Assembly (NCBI GenBank): GCA_945869475.1
Contig: CAMBOV010000001.1
Coordinates: 124,001-188,000, forward strand
DNA: 64,000 nt
DNA from: Singulisphaera sp. GP187
GTDB taxonomy: Bacteria > Planctomycetota > Phycisphaerae > Phycisphaerales > SM1A02
Direction of reading: 5' to 3'
Shown in pieces: positions 23,144 to 33,336 of the stretch. Position 1 is the stretch's first letter. Every line of letters begins with the position of its first letter. A program made the position numbers and the translations under genes. The notes beneath the pieces were generated by a model, which saw only the letters and a list, made by a program, of their open reading frames with translations, was not told the DNA's origin and did no database searches.

Positions 23144-23871
23144 GAAACCCGCTGGCCCACCGGCGACGTGCGCCGGGTGCGGGCTTCTTGAAGACGGCAT
23201 TCTGGGATGCAGGGTCGCTGCTCTGTCAAACACTCGTCTCGTGGCAGTATCACTTTCGAGTCGAAGGGCAGTCGCACATTCCCCCCACGGGACCCGCAAT
23301 CTTCATCGCGAATCATCAGTCGCTTCTCGATCCAGTCATCCATGGACTCGCCGTCGGTGATCGCGCGCCGCGACCGATGGCCAAAGAAGAACTCTTTAAG
23401 AATCCACTCTTTGGCGCGGTCTTGCGTGGGTTGAATTGCATCTGCGTGCGTTCGGATGGCGGAAATCGTGAGGCAATTCGGGTCGCGCTCGACGAGCTCG
23501 CCGCGGGGCGAACAGTGATGCTCTACCCCGAAGGAACGCGATCGAGCGATGGCTCGGTCAAAGAGTTTCGCCGCGGCGTTGAATTGCTCGCGCGCAAGTC
23601 GCACGCGCCAATCGTGCCGATGGGCATTGATGGAGCGTTTGACATTTGGCCCGCGGGTCGATCACTACCTCGCTCGCATGGGCGCATCTGGGCTGCGATT
23701 GGCGCGCCAATCACTGCCGAGCAGCAGGTCGAGTTGTTCGCTGATTCAGCAGCTGGACTCACACACTTGCAGCGTCGGGTGACGGCCCTCATGCGCCATT
23801 GCCGGTGTCAGCTTCGCCGCGCGACTGGCGAGACATATCCAGCGGTTGGAGTCGCCGATGAGCAATTCTGA
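23140..23871 (+). CDS. plsC: 1-acyl-sn-glycerol-3-phosphate acyltransferase (PlsC family)
   Basis: About 243 residues. The acyltransferase motifs are present: N-H-Q-S-L-L-D (family N-H-x-x-x-x-D) and Y-P-E-G-T-R-S, with I-V-P-M-G-I downstream. It makes phosphatidic acid from lysophosphatidic acid at the inner membrane. The GTG at 23140 is preferred because it overlaps the cmk stop (GTGA) and has a G-rich sequence just upstream. An in-frame ATG at 23119 is the alternative. The 3' end overlaps the cca gene by 14 bases. Confidence 0.9.
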   Translation: MRNPLAHRRRAPGAGFLKTAFWDAGSLLCQTLVSWQYHFRVEGQSHIPPTGPAIFIANHQSLLDPVIHGLAVGDRAPRPMAKEELFKNPLFGAVLRGLNCICVRSDGGNREAIRVALDELAAGRTVMLYPEGTRSSDGSVKEFRRGVELLARKSHAPIVPMGIDGAFDIWPAGRSLPRSHGRIWAAIGAPITAEQQVELFADSAAGLTHLQRRVTALMRHCRCQLRRATGETYPAVGVADEQF

Positions 23872-25108
23872 ACGGCCCCGAGGCGATTCGAAGTCGCAGC
23901 GCCCACAATCGTCCGCGCGAGAAGCGGCAACAGATGTCGCGCGGCGACTCATCGCCGAGGGATTCACCGCGTACTTCGCTGGCGGGTGTGTGCGTGATGA
24001 TCTCTTGGGTCTCGAACCAATCGACTTCGATCTCGCGACGGACGCTCACCCGCACGACATCGCACGAATCTTTCGCTCAGCGCGAAGCGTGGGGGAGTCG
24101 TTTGGAGTGATGCTCGTTCGTTCGCTCGGTCGCGCCACCGAGGTCGCGACGTTTCGAACGGATGGAAAGTATGAGGATGGCCGCCGTCCCAGCGAGGTGC
24201 GGTTTGCATCGGCCGCGGAAGATGCGGGACGGAGAGACTTTACAATCAACGGTCTTTTTCAACATCCGCTCACCAAAGAAGTCGTCGACTTTGTCCAGGG
24301 ACAGAGCGATCTGAAGGCGGGGGTGCTTCGTGCCATTGGCGATCCCGGTGCGAGGTTGAACGAGGATCGTCTGCGCACACTTCGAGCGGCGCGGTTCGCT
24401 GCGAGGTTTTCGCTGCGTGTCGACCCGTCGACTGCCTCTGCTATCGCGAATGCAGCGTGCGATCTCACAGGTGTGAGTCGTGAACGCATTGGCGGCGAGT
24501 TGCGGCGAATGCTTTCGCACGAGACGCGCGCGCGGGCGATTGAGCTGATCGAAGAGTGGGGGCTGGATGCTCCGGCGCTTCGCGAGTCGAACTCAACGGG
24601 TCTGTTGACGAGGGTTGCGGCGCTTCCAAGTGATGCCTCGTTCGCAACGGCCCTCGCGGCGTGGCGATTCGATCGCGCTGCTCGACCAGGCGCGGGCGCG
24701 CCTTCGCAGTGGCGCGATCCCATCAATCTCTCGGCACGAGAGTCGAGTGACCTCGATGCCATTTGTGCGATCGTTGAGCGATTGCGCGGTGAGTGGTCGA
24801 CCCTCTCCGTCGCTGCGCAGAAACGGCTCGCAGCGCGGGCGACCTTCGCGCCAGCGCTTGCCGTCGTTGGGGGAGAGAACCCCGCGCAGTGCAAGGTGGT
24901 CAGTGAGCGAGTCGCCGTTCTCGCGGCAGAACATGGCGGTCTCGAGCCGATCCCGCTGGTCACCGGTGGCGATCTGATCGCACTGGGCTGCACTCCAGGA
25001 CCGCGATTCAAGGCGATTCTCGACGCGCTCTATGACAGGCAACTCGAGGGGGTGATTACTGAGCGCGAGCAGGCGCAGGGTGTTGCCCGTGCAGAGTGGT
25101 TTTCCTAG
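23858..25108 (+). CDS. cca: tRNA nucleotidyltransferase (CCA-adding enzyme / poly(A) polymerase family)
   Basis: About 416 residues. The class II nucleotidyltransferase head has G-G-C-V-R-D-D-L-L-G, the catalytic D-F-D-L pair (D-x-D) and R-R-D-F-T-I-N-G-L. The R-L-N-E-D-R-L-R-T-L-R-A-A-R-F-A neck is typical of CCA/PAP enzymes. The three tRNA genes here lack encoded CCA, so such an enzyme is needed. The ATG at 23858 has GGAG six bases upstream; an ATG at 23846 is also in frame. A poly(A) polymerase role cannot be excluded. Confidence 0.92.
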   Translation: MSNSERPRGDSKSQRPQSSAREAATDVARRLIAEGFTAYFAGGCVRDDLLGLEPIDFDLATDAHPHDIARIFRSARSVGESFGVMLVRSLGRATEVATFRTDGKYEDGRRPSEVRFASAAEDAGRRDFTINGLFQHPLTKEVVDFVQGQSDLKAGVLRAIGDPGARLNEDRLRTLRAARFAARFSLRVDPSTASAIANAACDLTGVSRERIGGELRRMLSHETRARAIELIEEWGLDAPALRESNSTGLLTRVAALPSDASFATALAAWRFDRAARPGAGAPSQWRDPINLSARESSDLDAICAIVERLRGEWSTLSVAAQKRLAARATFAPALAVVGGENPAQCKVVSERVAVLAAEHGGLEPIPLVTGGDLIALGCTPGPRFKAILDALYDRQLEGVITEREQAQGVARAEWFS

Positions 25109-25156: not shown

Positions 25157-26464
25157 ATGAATCACTGCAAACTCTCGTGGTCACTTGCGCTTGCAACGGC
25201 CGTCGCGCTCACTGGAAACGCGCTGGGTCAATCGAAGTCGCCGCCCACGACGCCGCCAACGACGACGAAGCCTGCGACTGGGCAAAAGTCTCCAGCAACT
25301 GGCAAGGCGAGTGCGAAGCCAGCCGCAGCGGCGAAGACCACCGCACCAGCCGCTCCACCCCCAGCCGCTGTGTCCGCTGAACAAGTCAAGACGGTGTACG
25401 TCGTACCGATGGGATTTCGCGGCACTGGCCAGTTCGGACTCGACATCCATCCATCTGTGTATGAGAAAGTCGCCGCGGATGTCGCAGCGAAGAAACCCGA
25501 TCTCGTCGTCTTCGTGCTGAACTCTGCCGATGTCGACACGGTTGCGTACATGGGTGATGATCCGCGCGAGCAAGGCGTCTTTGATGACGATTCGATTCGC
25601 AAGATGACCCGTGATCTCAAGGCTTCCATCAACGCCACCGGCGCAGAGCAGGTGATGGTTGTGCGCGATGCTGTGGGATACAGCGCGCTTCTGGGTCTTT
25701 CGTGGCCCGACATGTACATGACCGAGAACGCCCGACTCATGGGACTCAGCCGAATTCAAGAGCGCACGCAAGTTGAAGATCCAGAAGTCTTCGCGAAGTT
25801 TCGCGAAGCGTTCGTTGGAATCTGCAACGGCTTTCTCGTCTCAGGCGGCTACAACCCATCAATCGGCTTGGCGATGATGCGTCCAGAGAAGATGCTCAGC
25901 GCGAGTTTCAAGGGTCGTGAGATCACCTGGCGCGAGGATGACAAGGGCACCTGGATCGTCGACAACAGCGATAAAAAGTTTGCCGGATTTTCAGCGCAGT
26001 CGGCCGAAGAGTTGGGACTCTCCGACGGCACCGTCGCGGATGAACTTCCTGCGATGCTCGAAGACTTGATGTATCAGCGTGGATTCCGCGAGTTTCAGCG
26101 GATGCCCGAGGATGGCGAACTGCTCGTTCAGGAATACGTCGATGGATGGCGCAAGGCCTATGAGTCGTGCAAGAAGTCATTCGAGACCTATCGAGAAGCG
26201 ATCGGAAACGCATCTGGCAAGGACGAACTCAAGTACCTCAACCAGGCGAAGAGCACGATCGACAAGGTGCTGGCGCTCATGAAGAAGTACCCCGCGGTCG
26301 CGATTCGTTTGAACCGAGAGTTTGGTGCGTCACGCGTTCAACTCGAGACCGAAGCGTTGCAGATTCAGGAGCGCATCCGTGGGCTTCGCAAGGCTCCGCC
26401 GAGTGGTGGTTCAGGATCGAAGGGCTCGTCGCCGACTGGCCCCGGGCTCGGTTCGGGTGGATGA
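25157..26464 (+). CDS. Secreted ClpP/SppA-like protein lacking the catalytic serine
   Basis: A 435-residue protein. It has a signal peptide (cleavage near A-L-G-Q, about residue 25), an Ala/Pro/Lys/Thr-rich linker to about 75, a ClpP/crotonase-like domain (about 78-290), and a helical Lys/Glu-rich region ending in a Gly/Ser-rich tail. It is paralogous to the next gene. Where that protein has I-S-G-G-A (Ser143), this one has V-G-Y-S-A (Gly174), while a lysine 40 residues further on (Lys214) is kept. It is therefore probably an inactive partner or regulator. The two genes overlap by four bases (ATGA). Confidence 0.75.
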   Translation: MNHCKLSWSLALATAVALTGNALGQSKSPPTTPPTTTKPATGQKSPATGKASAKPAAAAKTTAPAAPPPAAVSAEQVKTVYVVPMGFRGTGQFGLDIHPSVYEKVAADVAAKKPDLVVFVLNSADVDTVAYMGDDPREQGVFDDDSIRKMTRDLKASINATGAEQVMVVRDAVGYSALLGLSWPDMYMTENARLMGLSRIQERTQVEDPEVFAKFREAFVGICNGFLVSGGYNPSIGLAMMRPEKMLSASFKGREITWREDDKGTWIVDNSDKKFAGFSAQSAEELGLSDGTVADELPAMLEDLMYQRGFREFQRMPEDGELLVQEYVDGWRKAYESCKKSFETYREAIGNASGKDELKYLNQAKSTIDKVLALMKKYPAVAIRLNREFGASRVQLETEALQIQERIRGLRKAPPSGGSGSKGSSPTGPGLGSGG

Positions 26465-27588
26465 TTGACACAACGACGACCATGAAACATATGACACGAC
26501 GACCACTTTTCTATGCGACCCTTTTGCTTGCAGTTCTGAGCACGTCACCTGCACTGGCGCAGAAGGCTGCACCAGCAGCGAAGACTCCGCCGGCCAAGGC
26601 TCCCAGTGGCAAGGCAGGCGCAACGACCGCCTCGCAAGAGGGTGTGACCGCGCCGACCAAGAAGCAAGTCTTCATTCTTCCACTCGACGGCATGGTCGGC
26701 GTGGGATTGCGCCACGATGAAATGGAAGAGATGGAGAAGGTCGCCGACAAGTTCGGTCCCGGTCAGATCTTCATCATTCGCATCAATTCCAACGGTGGAC
26801 TCGTCATCGAAGGTGACAAGATCGCCACGACACTCTCACGAATCAAGAACAAGCATCGTCTCGTCGCGTGGATCGAAAAGGCTATTTCGGGCGGCGCCTT
26901 CACCGCGCTCTATGCAGACGAGATCTACTTCATGCCAGAAGCGGCGCTCGGATCGATCACGATGTTGAGTGGTCGCACCGAAGTCACTGCCGTGCGTGAA
27001 GATTGGAAGAGTCGCGTCGCAGAAGCATGCGCCAGCGGCGGGCGCGATCCGCTCATCGGTCCAGCGATGGTGCACTCCGAAGTCGAACTCTCGTACGACA
27101 AAGATCCCAAGACTGGCAAGGTCACTTTTTATCCCGACGTCAAGCACGCGTTTGTGCTTTCGACGCGCACCGAAAACCTCGACTTTAGCGCGACCTCGGC
27201 CGAGCACTCTGGATTTTCTGAAGGCACTGCAGCGACCGAAGCAGATCTCTTTCGTGAACTCGGCGTCGACGACTCAAGTCGATTCGAGGTGAACGATGCA
27301 GGACGAAAGATCGCAACGAAGTGGCAGAAACTCATCAAGGGTGCGAACGAAGAGGTTCCGCTGTTGCTGCGCAAGCGCGACATCGAAGGATCGTCCGAAG
27401 GTGGCATCGCCTTCCTTCAGGCGCGCATTCGCAACACTCAGAAAATCGTCGACTGGTTCAAGAAGTGTCCGCCAGCGATGATGTACGAGCTGAACATTCC
27501 CGAGCGCGCCATCGATCAGATGGAGCAAGAGATCAAAGAGATGCGCAAGCAGATCAAAGAGATGCAGAGCGCCGGCAGCGCGCAGTAA
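26461..27588 (+). CDS. Secreted ClpP/SppA-class serine protease-like protein
   Basis: A 375-residue protein. A signal peptide (…A-L-A-Q) and an Ala/Lys-rich linker are followed by a ClpP/NfeD/SppA-like domain beginning V-F-I-L-P-L-D-G near 70. I-I-R-I-N-S-N-G-G resembles the oxyanion strand (…N-x-x-G-G). A-I-S-G-G-A supplies a candidate nucleophile (Ser143), with Lys183 forty residues later, close to the Ser-Lys spacing of NfeD/SppA proteases. A coiled-coil Met/Glu/Lys-rich C-terminus follows. Starts at 26482 and 26491 are possible; 26461 overlaps the preceding stop. Substrate unknown. Confidence 0.78.
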   Translation: MIDTTTTMKHMTRRPLFYATLLLAVLSTSPALAQKAAPAAKTPPAKAPSGKAGATTASQEGVTAPTKKQVFILPLDGMVGVGLRHDEMEEMEKVADKFGPGQIFIIRINSNGGLVIEGDKIATTLSRIKNKHRLVAWIEKAISGGAFTALYADEIYFMPEAALGSITMLSGRTEVTAVREDWKSRVAEACASGGRDPLIGPAMVHSEVELSYDKDPKTGKVTFYPDVKHAFVLSTRTENLDFSATSAEHSGFSEGTAATEADLFRELGVDDSSRFEVNDAGRKIATKWQKLIKGANEEVPLLLRKRDIEGSSEGGIAFLQARIRNTQKIVDWFKKCPPAMMYELNIPERAIDQMEQEIKEMRKQIKEMQSAGSAQ

Positions 27589-28633: not shown

Positions 28634-28824
28634 GCGGTGGGGCTCGAAGTCTCAAGCCACGAGGATAGGCGATCGCGTCGAGGCGGGGCGCACACTCTGG
28701 CGATTGAACCGAGTTCACCGCAACTGCGTACGATCAGCGATCCCAATCCAACGAGAATTTCGTAGGATTGTGACTCTGTGTTGGCTTCGTCGTTCGCGTG
28801 CGCTCCTCTTGTGATGCTCCATAC

Positions 28825-30960
28825 ATGATGCATGATCAATTTGTCTATCGGCAGGCGACGCGGGTCTCGGGAAGTGGACTTTTGCTCCAAGGTGCGCTCG
28901 CGCTGCTGCTGCTGATTTTCGGCAATATCGCAGGCGATTCTGCCCTTGTGCTCGCCGGGCTCTATGTCACGACCGGCATCGTGAGTTGGGCGACGCTGGC
29001 TGTGCTCTTTCATCAACACAAACTCGAACGGGTCGAGTCACTCGAAAATGAAGAGGTCGCCCTCGCGCGCGGCACCGGCAGCAGCGTCTTTGAGGGAGAA
29101 CGGGTCGAAAATCAGGCGGCCGCCCGTCGACTGCGCCTCATGCATCAGTGGCTCGCGCCCATCGCGAGTCTTTGCGTCGCGACCCTGCTCGGCCTGCTCT
29201 GCTACTTCACCCTCACCTGGCTCGCGCGCCTCGACGACTCTGCAGGCAACGCGACGACTTTTCGAGTCGGTTCGCATCTTGGATGGCAACTCGCGATCTG
29301 TACCGCGCTGGCGCTGGTCACATTCATCTTCTCGCGTTTCGTCGCGGGGATGGCGAAGAAGTCGGCGTGGCAAAACTTGCGCGGCGGTGCAGGAGCGATG
29401 GTTGGGAACGCCTTGGTGCTTCTGGCCATCGCCGTTGGGATGGTCTTTCAAGTTTTCAAGAAGGGTGAGGTGCTCGAGGCAATCGCCTACGGCATCGCGA
29501 TCTACACCGGAGTGATCGCCGCAGAGATTCTGCTCAACCTGATCCTGAATCTCTACCGACCACGCCGAGTGACCGAGACTCCGCGTCCGGCATTCGATTC
29601 GAAGTTGCTCGGACTCGCCGCCGCTCCAGATTCAATCGTGCGATCGATCAATGAAGCGGTGAACTATCAATTCGGCTTCGACATCACGAGCTCGTGGGGA
29701 TACCAATTGCTCTTGCGCAGCGTGCTGCGACTCTGCACGCTTGGAGTCGTCGTGTTGCTCATCATGTCGATGATCGTCGTCGTGCAACCGAGCGAACAAG
29801 CCGTGCGCCTGCGCGGTGGACGAGTGATCGGCGAGGTTGCTCAAGGATCGCTGCTCTTGAAGTGGCCCTGGCCGTTCGAGTCGATCGAGCGCTATGACAT
29901 CGGTCAGATTCGAACGCTTGTGCTCGGCGCGAAGTTGATGCCGACGTCGATGGTGAATCTCTGGCCGGTCGAAGGTGAGCCCGATCCAGATCGGTTGCCA
30001 TTCATTGTCTTGGCGAGTTCGCTGCAAAGCGCAGCGATGACACCGAGCAACGATGGCGCAGCGACGCAACCGACGCAAGCAACCGCAATCTCAGGAGCCG
30101 ATGCCGCGCGCGTCTCGAATCAGTTTGCTCTTATTGATGCGGACATCGTGCTCGAGTATCGCGTTCGCGCCGATGGTTTGCTCGACTACCTGCAATTCTG
30201 CGGCGATGCTCGTACGCGCGGCAGCGCACTCGACATGCGCGAACGAACGCTCAAGGCGATCGCTCTTCGTGAAGCGAGCCAGTTGTTTTCAACCCGCTCG
30301 ATCGATCAAGTGCTCTCGCCCACAGGGGACTCGTTTGTGAGCCAATTGAAGCAGCGGGTGCAAGGTGCCTTCGACCGAAGCCGAAGCGGCGTCGAAGTTG
30401 TTGGAATTTTGCTCCCCGTCCTTCGCCCGCCAGCGGGTGAGGCGGCTGGGATGTTCGAAGAGCTCTCGATTGATGTGCAGAATGCACGCAAGATCGTTGA
30501 TGAAGCAAATCGGATGCGCAACGTCACGCTCTCGACGCTCGTGGGCAGCCCCGACCGCGCGCGGACGATTGTCGCTGCGATTGAAGAACTTCAACGGACC
30601 GAGAAGACGGCTGGCTCGAGTTCGCCTCAAGCGCGTGAGCAGCGGGCGGCAGTCGAGCAGATGCTGCTCGATGCACGTGCGCAAGCTGCCAGTGTGATCA
30701 GCGCGGCACGTGCCCGTCGCTGGGACATCGTTATGCGCGCGCGGTCGACGGCGAGCGAAGTGCTCGGGCAGGCTGCGGCCTATCACACGGCTCCTGAGAT
30801 CTATCGAGAGCGTGCGATCATGTCCGTGCTGACGCGGGCTCTCGCGGCTGTGCGAATCAAGTATGTCTTAGCGGTCGACCCTTCGCGGGTCGAGTTTGAT
30901 GTCCAGATGGAACAACCCGAACCGGGGCTCAACCTCGCAGATTACATCGAGAAGAAATAG
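28825..30960 (+). CDS. SPFH/Band 7 protein with an N-terminal multi-pass membrane domain (HflK-like)
   Basis: About 711 residues. The N-terminal ~250 residues hold roughly six hydrophobic segments (about 18-38, 40-63, 113-133, 152-172, 192-212, 218-244). A further segment at 300-322 then leads into an SPFH domain (E-Q-A-V-R-L-R-G-G-R-V-I-G-E-V), followed by a long Ala/Arg/Glu-rich helical region. HflK and HflC normally have one anchor, so the multi-pass part is extra. HflK/C form cages around FtsH; no ftsH is here. The GTG at 28798 is an alternative start. It is the first gene of a six-gene unit with the two SPFH genes, ABC ATPase, permease and membrane protein that follow. Confidence 0.85.
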   Translation: MMHDQFVYRQATRVSGSGLLLQGALALLLLIFGNIAGDSALVLAGLYVTTGIVSWATLAVLFHQHKLERVESLENEEVALARGTGSSVFEGERVENQAAARRLRLMHQWLAPIASLCVATLLGLLCYFTLTWLARLDDSAGNATTFRVGSHLGWQLAICTALALVTFIFSRFVAGMAKKSAWQNLRGGAGAMVGNALVLLAIAVGMVFQVFKKGEVLEAIAYGIAIYTGVIAAEILLNLILNLYRPRRVTETPRPAFDSKLLGLAAAPDSIVRSINEAVNYQFGFDITSSWGYQLLLRSVLRLCTLGVVVLLIMSMIVVVQPSEQAVRLRGGRVIGEVAQGSLLLKWPWPFESIERYDIGQIRTLVLGAKLMPTSMVNLWPVEGEPDPDRLPFIVLASSLQSAAMTPSNDGAATQPTQATAISGADAARVSNQFALIDADIVLEYRVRADGLLDYLQFCGDARTRGSALDMRERTLKAIALREASQLFSTRSIDQVLSPTGDSFVSQLKQRVQGAFDRSRSGVEVVGILLPVLRPPAGEAAGMFEELSIDVQNARKIVDEANRMRNVTLSTLVGSPDRARTIVAAIEELQRTEKTAGSSSPQAREQRAAVEQMLLDARAQAASVISAARARRWDIVMRARSTASEVLGQAAAYHTAPEIYRERAIMSVLTRALAAVRIKYVLAVDPSRVEFDVQMEQPEPGLNLADYIEKK

Positions 30961-30962
30961 CA

Positions 30963-31904
30963 ATGACACGAAAAATCCCCATCATCGTTGCGTGCATCAT
31001 CGTTGCAGTCTTGGTGCTTTTTAATACCACCTACACCGTCAACTTTCATGAGGTCGCAGTGCTCACGCGATTTGGGAAGCCCGCTGGCGTGCAACGCGAC
31101 GCGGGTCTTCACTTCAAGGCGCCACTCTTTATCGATCAGGTCTCACGGCTCGATACAAGACTGCAGTTGATCGAGAGTTCGCTCGAGACGGTCCTGACAA
31201 AGGATGGACAGCAAGTGCTCGTCAAGGCCTATCTCTTGTGGCGAGTCGATAGCGCGGGGGATGCACCTCTGCAATTCTTTATCTCCTACGGTTCGATCGA
31301 AGCCGCCGGCAAAGACCTCATGACCCAATTGCAAGGTGCAGTGCGCGCGGTCGGCGGTTACACATTCGCGCAACTCATCGGTCAAGAGAGCAAGATCGCT
31401 GAGGCTGAGAGTTCGATCTTGGCCGACCTTCGATCGACGAAGTTGGCTGGGGTTGACCCCGTCACAGTGGGCATCTCGCAAGTTGTCTTGCCGCCAAAGA
31501 CCACGGTCGCGGTGCTGCGCCGAATGGCGGCTGTCCAAGAAACACTCGCAAACCTTGAGGAATCAAAGGGAAATTCAGAGGCCGAGGCGATCAAGAGCCA
31601 AGCGGCAAGCACGGGCGACACGATTCGTCGCTTCGCAGATAGTTGGGCGGCGGATATCGAGGCGCTTGGAAATGAAGAGGCGACCCGCTACTACGAACTC
31701 ATGAAGGCTGAATCAGAGCTCGCGATTTTTCTCGCATGGCTCGACACGCTCAAGGGATCGCTCTCGGGCAGCACCACGTTCGTGACCGATCTCAACCGAG
31801 CTCCCTTCCATCTGCTCGATCTCTCGACGACGTCGGGTGCGAACAATATTCCCCAGCCAGTGAAGCCATACGGCATGGATGCCGCACCGACTGGAACTCC
31901 TTGA
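30963..31904 (+). CDS. SPFH/Band 7 protein (HflC-like)
   Basis: A 313-residue protein with one N-terminal anchor (I-P-I-I-V-A-C-I-I-V-A-V-L-V-L-F), then the SPFH domain starting V-N-F-H-E-V-A-V-L-T-R-F-G-K-P, and a helical C-terminal half. Length and layout fit HflC. It begins two bases after the preceding stop and ends just before the third SPFH gene, so it is co-transcribed. The expected role is a membrane-scaffold oligomer with the preceding HflK-like protein. Confidence 0.88.
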   Translation: MTRKIPIIVACIIVAVLVLFNTTYTVNFHEVAVLTRFGKPAGVQRDAGLHFKAPLFIDQVSRLDTRLQLIESSLETVLTKDGQQVLVKAYLLWRVDSAGDAPLQFFISYGSIEAAGKDLMTQLQGAVRAVGGYTFAQLIGQESKIAEAESSILADLRSTKLAGVDPVTVGISQVVLPPKTTVAVLRRMAAVQETLANLEESKGNSEAEAIKSQAASTGDTIRRFADSWAADIEALGNEEATRYYELMKAESELAIFLAWLDTLKGSLSGSTTFVTDLNRAPFHLLDLSTTSGANNIPQPVKPYGMDAAPTGTP

Positions 31905-31905
31905 G

Positions 31906-33336
31906 ATGAGCTCGGCGCACCCTTCACCCGACGATCCAGCCACGCCTGCGGCAGACAGCCACGCGGTTCGCGCTGGAAAGCGCGCTGAACTGAATGTCTC
32001 AGCGTCGGCCGTTGATCGCGCATCGATGCGCGAGGCGATGGACCCCGCCAACGAGTCTCTCGCCGAGGCGCTTCGCCTCTCGTATCGACTGCTTCAAGTT
32101 GCGATGTGCGGTCTCGTGATCACCTTTCTCTTCTCAGGATTCCAATCCGTTCCAGAAGGAGTGACCGGACTTCGAACGATCTTCGGGCGCGTTACAGGCG
32201 AAGCGGGTGACGAGTCGATCGTCCCAGGATTAAAGCCGTTTTGGCCCTATCCCGTTGGTGAAACGCTCACGATGCCACTGCGCCGCACCGTCGAAGTGCG
32301 CGATGCCTTCTGGCCAACACTTGGAGCCAAGGACGTGACGCTCGAGCAAGCGACAGATGCAGCGGATGCGAACAACCCGATCCGTCCAGGTCGCGATGGA
32401 TCCGTCATCACCGCCGATGGTGATCTCGCACACCTTCAACTCGCAGTCGAATACTCGGTGCTCGATCCCGTTGCCGCGCTTGCGCAGATCAATCCTGAAC
32501 AGGTCGATCGATTGATTGAAAAAGTTCTTGAGGGCGCGGTGGTGCAGGTCGCTTCGCAGTTCACACTCGCAGACCTTCTTGAACAACGCGACCTTCCGGG
32601 AGCGGAGATTCGCATGAAGATGCAGTCGAGGCTCGACGGATTGCGCAGTGGCATCCATGTCACTTCGGTCACGCTGACCGAGCGCTCGGCACCGCTGGCC
32701 GTTCGCAACGCACTTCGCCGAGTTCAAATCGCCCGCGAGGATATGAAGACAGCGCTCGAGCGGGCTCGACAGGATGCCAACTCAAAACTCGTCGGTGCCG
32801 CCGGTCCCAACTACGCAGAGGTGCTCGCACTCATTGCGACCTACGAGTCGCATCTCACCGCTGGACACCAATTGCAAGCCGATGAGACGTTGCATGCGAT
32901 TGGTCTGCGTCTCGAACAGCCTGATATCGGCGGCGAAGCAGCGCGCATCATCTTGCGCGCGAAGGCGTCAGGATCGACGCTCGAAGCGACCCTCGCGACC
33001 GAGACGCGCCGACTCGCAGGGCTCACCCCCTCGTACCGCGAGAATCCAAGGCAACTCATTCAGCAACTCTGGCTTGAAGGGGTGCGCGAGGTGATGAGCA
33101 AGCAAGAGGTCGAGGTCTTTGCACTTCCGCCGGGCATCGGGCACTACGTCATCCATGTCAAGAGTTCCCCAGACGTCATGCAGACCCGTCGTGACGTTGA
33201 GCTTGCGCGCAAGAAGCAAGCTGCGGCCATGATGAACTTCGATATGCAATCTTTCCAACTCGGAAGCAAGCAAATCATGATCGACAAGCCAGGTCGCAGG
33301 CTCGATAAGAGTGGCGATAAGGGATTCGGCCAGTAG
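31906..33336 (+). CDS. Third SPFH/Band 7 protein (HflK-like)
   Basis: About 476 residues. An acidic, disordered N-terminal segment precedes a single membrane anchor (about 62-82). The SPFH domain begins S-V-P-E-G-V-T-G-L-R-T-I-F-G-R-V and is followed by a region rich in Glu, Ala and Arg predicted to be helical. The C-terminus is Lys-rich. P-G-L-K-P-F-W-P-Y-P-V-G resembles the HflK loop after the first strand. The start at 31906 lies one base after the preceding stop. Three SPFH genes in a row is unusual; normally there are two. Confidence 0.85.
   Translation: MSSAHPSPDDPATPAADSHAVRAGKRAELNVSASAVDRASMREAMDPANESLAEALRLSYRLLQVAMCGLVITFLFSGFQSVPEGVTGLRTIFGRVTGEAGDESIVPGLKPFWPYPVGETLTMPLRRTVEVRDAFWPTLGAKDVTLEQATDAADANNPIRPGRDGSVITADGDLAHLQLAVEYSVLDPVAALAQINPEQVDRLIEKVLEGAVVQVASQFTLADLLEQRDLPGAEIRMKMQSRLDGLRSGIHVTSVTLTERSAPLAVRNALRRVQIAREDMKTALERARQDANSKLVGAAGPNYAEVLALIATYESHLTAGHQLQADETLHAIGLRLEQPDIGGEAARIILRAKASGSTLEATLATETRRLAGLTPSYRENPRQLIQQLWLEGVREVMSKQEVEVFALPPGIGHYVIHVKSSPDVMQTRRDVELARKKQAAAMMNFDMQSFQLGSKQIMIDKPGRRLDKSGDKGFGQ

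Follow-up and report, generated by a model that had tools for sequence, protein, structure and literature searches.

Two tandem genes of the window (the whole stretch of DNA that was analysed, 64,000 nucleotides), referred to as A and B, probably encode the two subunits of a heteromeric protease with a Ser-Lys dyad formed in trans, the Lys being supplied by A and the Ser by B. Neither subunit was found to hold a complete catalytic set. It also seems fairly likely that the trans-dyad heteromer is obligate, that it originated through complementary loss after a gene duplication, and that it is kept across much of one planctomycete order, with each partner appearing dead when considered individually. 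If this is true, the pair would show cleanly how, in nature, the complementary loss of two catalytic residues after duplication can turn an enzyme into an obligate heteromer, and the Phycisphaerales-type planctomycetes would gain a widely kept and so far unnamed protease. Moreover, the term 'pseudo-protease' would have to be used with caution, as a protein of this appearance may contribute one half of a working site.

The gene pair and its neighbours

The pair was carried by an assembly of 2.55 Mb in 32 contigs. Its genes, with the proteins P1 and P2, and the gene upstream of them were as follows:

23846..25108, forward strand: cca, head of a tRNA nucleotidyltransferase/poly(A) polymerase (PF01743, E 7e-33), just upstream of gene A
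25157..26464, forward strand: gene A (P1), 435 aa; ClpP/NfeD-fold subunit with the Lys of the catalytic position kept and the Ser absent
25157..25231, forward strand: probable signal peptide of P1, MNHCKLSWSLALATAVALTGNALGQ, assigned by eye; a Pro/Ala/Thr-rich linker comes next
26461..27588 (start possibly 26482), forward strand: gene B (P2), 375 aa from 26461; Ser and SxGG loop kept, Lys absent

P1 and P2 were homologous according to BLASTP (E 7e-8), and their profile-profile alignment had a probability of 100 (E 6.3e-51, 303 columns). In total, 68 tandem pairs were counted, namely the pair of the window and those at 67 loci of relatives. The labels A and B were assigned by gene order and not by residues, and the gene order agreed with the profile scores in 68/68 pairs.

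An earlier sequence-only reading of this DNA had described an overlap of four bases between the genes. The end of P1 and the start of P2 share the letters ATGA (26461-26464) if P2 begins with the ATG at 26461, which agrees with that description. However, the start of P2 may be 26482 and the overlap perhaps not real, since the column of Met8 (26482) was Met in 61 of the 68 B proteins.

In the case of export, a hydrophobic segment N-terminal of the core was flagged by a 19-residue hydropathy scan in 50/68 A and 53/68 B. The same scan flagged no such segment in the P1 and P2 of the window itself, the N-termini of which read by eye like cleavable signal peptides. A and B are probably exported subunits, as judged by eye for the window's own pair.

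A homologue of cca was located upstream on the same strand at 61 of the 67 pair loci of relatives, within approximately 0.5 kb at 60 of them. On the other side of the pair, three genes on the same strand were observed at 28798-33336 of the window, two of which encode SPFH/Band_7 proteins (E 1e-21 and 2e-20); the 720-aa protein preceding these two had no Pfam match and was HflK-like by eye. The gene of an ABC-2-type membrane protein sits on the opposite strand between the pair and the SPFH genes, which are at least 3.4 kb downstream of the pair. Homologues of the three downstream genes were found near the pair at 21, 19, and 18 of the 67 loci, many of which were too short to tell. The 19 and the 18 refer to the Band_7 homologues, and the SPFH genes were rejected as general partners of the pair.

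Residues at the catalytic positions

The positions of the catalytic residues were determined by comparison with PH1510-N, using hhalign. The profile alignments to PH1510 were weak (probabilities of 78.5 and 86.7); Gly174 and Lys214 of A were placed opposite Ser97 and Lys138 of PH1510, Ser143 of B was placed opposite Ser97, a gap in B was opposite Lys138, and Lys183 of B fell on an Ile. The corresponding sites in the window were as follows:

25676..25678, forward strand: Gly174 of P1; nucleophile site, opposite Ser97 of PH1510; Ser in 0/68 A
25796..25798, forward strand: Lys214 of P1; opposite Lys138 of PH1510; in 68/68 A; proposed general base in trans
26788..26799, forward strand: S110-N-G112-G113 of P2; the fold's SxGG loop, which probably is the oxyanion loop; lost in A
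26887..26889, forward strand: Ser143 of P2; nucleophile, opposite Ser97 of PH1510; in 68/68 B
26992..26994, forward strand: Val178 of P2; column of Lys138/Lys214 in relatives; Lys lost
27007..27009, forward strand: Lys183 of P2; Lys in 19/68 B; opposite Ile of PH1510, off the catalytic position

The sequence-only reading had noted A-I-S-G-G-A in the second protein with a Lys 40 residues later, and A-V-G-Y-S-A in the first with Gly at the site of the Ser and a Lys at the same distance. These letters were confirmed, with Lys183 being exactly 40 residues past the Ser of A-I-S143-G-G-A in P2 and Lys214 exactly 40 residues past the Gly of D-A-V-G174-Y-S-A in P1. The Ser of the second protein had also been placed at the nucleophile position, and the first protein had been described as lacking a Ser there; both assignments held throughout the pairs. 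The nucleophile column was Ser in every B, and it was Gly in 62, Ala in 4, Val in 1, and Phe in 1 of the 68 A proteins. When the halves at contig ends and the extra copies were included, A had Lys in 71/71 and Ser in 0/71, and B had Ser in 75/75 and Lys at the Lys214 column in 2/75 (L057 and L067). Outside these totals, five further A proteins (L135-L139) all had Lys, with Gly in four and Ser in one (L135, genome G052), and Ser was present in one further partial B (L139).

The conservation of the Lys differed between the two groups in the same manner. The Lys214 column, invariant in A, was occupied by Glu, Val, Ala, and other residues in B. In a separate alignment of A (44 rows), Lys214 was one of two invariant columns and ranked first of 343 columns by entropy. 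In a separate alignment of B (39 rows), six columns were invariant, including the Ser and no Lys; the column matching Lys214 ranked 259 and that of Lys183 ranked 157 of 303. The Ser of B, its absence from A, and the Lys214 of A were thus retained beyond chance, unlike Lys183. Consequently, Lys183 was rejected as the catalytic Lys owing to its presence in only 19/68 B, its rank, and its position opposite an Ile, and the proposal that it is the dyad partner of the Ser had to be abandoned. The apparent split of the dyad had been overlooked because Lys183 was mis-assigned as the catalytic Lys. Ser176 of P1, two residues past the nucleophile site, was considered as a relocated nucleophile, and it was rejected since this position was Ser in only 34/68 A.

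Similar to the Lys, the SxGG loop was distributed unevenly. Its GG was present in 75/75 B and was shared by 28 of the 29 other family members, and A was without GG, the first position of the loop being Asp in most rows. In P1, the loop of residues 123-144 (approximately 25523-25588) has an insertion of approximately 17 residues in place of the SxGG loop; the insertion was observed in most A and was absent from B.

In P2, E117, R133, and T167 were near-invariant among B (66, 64, and 66 of 68) and less so in single-chain members of the family. These residues may shape the trans site or, as they are specifically conserved in B, offer Ser143 a different catalytic partner within its own chain. Accordingly, B could be active alone by means of a base that is not the Lys138 equivalent, helped for example by E117, R133, or T167, and A could be a catalytically dead subunit with a regulatory or structural role, comparable to the inactive ClpP-type subunits. 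The Ser and the SxGG loop in every B would fit this arrangement, as would the known heteromeric ClpP complexes, of which solved ClpP1/P2 entries appeared among the structural matches. It is nevertheless unlikely, because B has no invariant Lys and because Lys214, kept in all A and first in conservation, would be needless in a dead subunit; with such a rank, A is not expected to be merely structural.

A second alternative is that both proteins are pseudo-proteases, forming an extracytoplasmic heteromer that binds peptides or acts as a scaffold, and in which the Lys of A binds a ligand or forms a salt bridge. The lack of a full dyad in either chain agrees with this, and there are family members in which one residue or both are missing (L107, L131, the third gene of L083, and the second genes of L116-L118 and L120). 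However, exactly the two catalytic positions showed opposite retention, with the Ser and the GG loop in 75/75 B and the Lys in 71/71 A, and this makes a pair of pseudo-proteases quite improbable. Regarding the heteromer with one inactive subunit that had been suggested from the letters, a heteromer probably is formed, but the division into an active and an inactive subunit did not stand, as the Lys138 equivalent was invariant in A and lost in B.

Structural models and known proteases

The relationship to ClpP, NfeD, and SppA proposed in the sequence-only reading was supported. By sequence, B belonged to NfeD1b_N of Pfam (E 5e-20, 72.3 bits, cut-off 40), and the models of A and B both showed the ClpP/crotonase fold of NfeD/SppA-type Ser proteases and matched PH1510-N. 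In the case of A, P1 gave no Pfam or NCBIfam match up to E 1 and P1 alone had no sequence relative in the PDB; the best matches of the A profile to PDB sequences were coiled-coil-like and due to chance, with PH1510 at E 0.43. The model of the A core had a pLDDT of 89.9 and a pTM of 0.85. Its best match by VIA was PH1510-N (6m4b; Z 16.0, rmsd 3.1, 184 aligned), and the top ranks by Foldseek were crotonase-family enzymes (PaaG, E 1.7e-5).

A fused A-B chain was modelled with AlphaFold2 using the chain of the relative L032 and 18 further fused rows, resulting in a pLDDT of 81.3 and a pTM of 0.76. The B half of this model was again matched best by PH1510-N using VIA (6m4b; Z 21.7, rmsd 1.9, 181 aligned). 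Both halves together were matched to E. coli SppA (VIA, 3bf0_C; Z 14.8, rmsd 6.8, 352 residues), although this match was loose (rmsd 6.8-7.0) and the Foldseek superposition on E. coli SppA was poor (rmsd 23.9). With moderate confidence, the fused model suggests a side-by-side placement of the halves as in SppA or NfeD, which is no proof of a composite site. No natural A-B fusion gene was noticed in passing among the ORFs examined.

Among known proteases, PH1510-N, the stomatin-specific Ser-Lys protease of the NfeD1b type from Pyrococcus horikoshii, was the best structural match of both A and B, and both catalytic columns mapped onto it. Ser97 and Lys138 of PH1510 are located in one chain, whereas their counterparts in A and B are split over two proteins. 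Unlike NfeD1b with its membrane part, no TM-like segment was seen by hydropathy past the start of the core in 68/68 A and 67/68 B, and neither A nor B had a Pfam match to the C-terminal domain of NfeD. A passage of PMC2636767 places NfeD1b in an operon with an SPFH1b/stomatin gene, whereas no SPFH gene directly adjoins the pair in the window.

In the case of SppA (S49), B scored 40.7 bits against TIGR00706, for which the cut-off is 155.45, and A had no match, so that both are below the SppA model. SppA is one polypeptide or a homo-oligomer, whereas two genes are involved here. In E. coli SppA, as Kim et al. reportedly described in 2008, the Lys lies in the N-terminal half and the Ser in the C-terminal half; this is also the order of A and B. 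The Lys of SppA is presumably located elsewhere in the chain, as we take the K199A position of 3rst to be in an SGAHA stretch beyond the Lys138 stretch.

Arrangements of neighbouring protomers that bear on such a site have been described for both known types. For the SppA octamer of B. subtilis, PMC7568657 describes active sites built from two adjacent monomers. For PH1510-N, PMC3795559 places Lys138 at the foot of the flexible L2 loop, where it was not observed in position. In the dimer described there, a single peptide lies between the protomers under both L2 loops, and the two residues at position 138 are very close. By analogy with these two-monomer sites and this dimer geometry, the single Ser and the single Lys of an A-B pair could form exactly one site at the junction.

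From the residues, the models, and these analogies, we infer a complex of A and B that has protease activity through a trans dyad. A and B would be paralogous subunits of one ClpP-fold Ser-Lys protease, with the NfeD protease PH1510-N as the nearest known one. After the duplication, the general base would have remained in A, which gave up its nucleophile and SxGG loop, and the nucleophile and the loop would have remained in B, which gave up the base. The two would assemble face to face, like the protomers of PH1510-N or SppA, such that Lys214 reaches Ser143. Each A-B pair would have a single active site, and neither protein would be active alone. If there is only one junction site, as proposed, A would be expected to keep its Lys above nearly all else while losing the Ser and the loop, and B would be free to drop its Lys. 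The substrates would probably be extracytoplasmic peptides or unfolded proteins. With this pair, it could readily be tested whether the NfeD/SppA dyad acts across subunits, a question left open by the PH1510 structures.

Heteromeric ClpP (ClpP1P2 and ClpP/ClpR) likewise consists of duplicated ClpP-fold subunits, one of which is without the nucleophile. The ClpR-type subunits have lost catalytic residues and are not known to supply one in trans. AccA/AccD, the carboxyltransferase of acetyl-CoA carboxylase, is a crotonase-fold heteromer with its active site between two paralogous subunits; unlike the proposed complex, it is not a protease and has no catalytic dyad. In the titles and abstracts of the open-access papers searched, no protease with a Ser-Lys dyad split between two genes was found to be described.

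Distribution, co-variation, and ancestry

When the genomes of 101 relatives were searched with P2, matches were obtained in 92 at E 0.001. The 80 regions together with the window comprised 68 tandem pairs, 12 single copies, and one triplet, and several of the single copies were halves at contig ends. At E 1e-45, A was detected in 74/101, B in 74/101, and both in 73/101 genomes; hence, 73 of the 75 genomes with either gene held both. A was found alone in G054, and B was found alone in G028, where the contig ends. Two families of the same order, f5 and f6, had neither A nor B at E 1e-45. Among 294 genomes sampled over the phylum, full-strength matches of A and B were confined to the order, and the best match outside it was at one place in G377 (B 1.4e-45, A 2.1e-24). 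A scan of genome contigs yielded three close relatives only; the close relatives were MAGs labelled as Phycisphaerales or 'Planctomycetia', and two came from deep Lake Baikal.

Two genomes, G054 and G052, broke the common pattern, and a third held a triplet. G054, which was 97% complete, had an A with Gly and Lys, and no B was found, only a distant relative elsewhere; either this speaks against A depending strictly on B, or the assembly lacks its B. In G052, the A behind cca had both Ser and Lys (L135, 6810-8522) and B was located on another contig (L140); the dyad of this A is complete, either retained or regained. The triplet of G062 (L083, 6524-10359) consisted of an A-like gene (Gln, Lys), a B-like gene (Ser, Glu), and a third, B-derived gene (Gly, Glu).

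The evolutionary distances at 62 loci were compared among A, B, and cca. The correlation was 0.89 for A-B, 0.56 for A-cca, and 0.58 for B-cca, and the partial correlation of A-B given cca was 0.84, compared with 0.12 for A-cca and 0.21 for B-cca. In a Mantel test, the residual A-B correlation was reached in 0/2000 permutations, which ignore phylogeny. Shared selection without contact can also yield such rate co-variation. It might further be supposed that A and B are not partners, that each acts with another family member or alone, and that their adjacency is an inherited order behind cca. The unlinked genes of G052, the A without a detected B in G054, and the stability of cca as a neighbour are in line with this. 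However, both the co-occurrence in 73/75 genomes and an A-B co-variation far above that with cca speak against it, and A and B acting apart is highly improbable.

The complementary arrangement in A and B was compared with the state in 29 other family members, which were best matches and not a random draw. Ser and Lys were present in one chain in 21 of these 29; outside the A and B groups, a single chain thus commonly carries the entire dyad. The remaining eight were L105 (Ser, Arg) and L115 (Ser; Lys one column off), the second genes of L116, L117, and L120 (Ser, Asp) and of L118 (Ala, Asp), and L107 and L131 (both Gly, Glu). L107 was counted here although it grouped with A in the tree, and the third gene of L083 was in no counted group.

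The tree was constructed from 107 rows with every second pair (34 A and 34 B) and a midpoint root; the window's own rows were represented by the nearest relative, L032, and L130 was excluded because of its short length. A (98/90) and B (99/95) were sister groups, and A+B split from the rest at 100/91. On these sequences, the simplest history would be a single duplication, followed by the loss of the Ser in A and of the Lys in B. Tandem pairs of NfeD-like genes were also observed in family f9 of the same class (L116, L117, L118, and L120). Ser and Lys were both present in the first genes. In the second genes, the Lys column held Asp, and the nucleophile site held Ser at three of the loci and Ala at the fourth; in the tree, these pairs represented a separate duplication.
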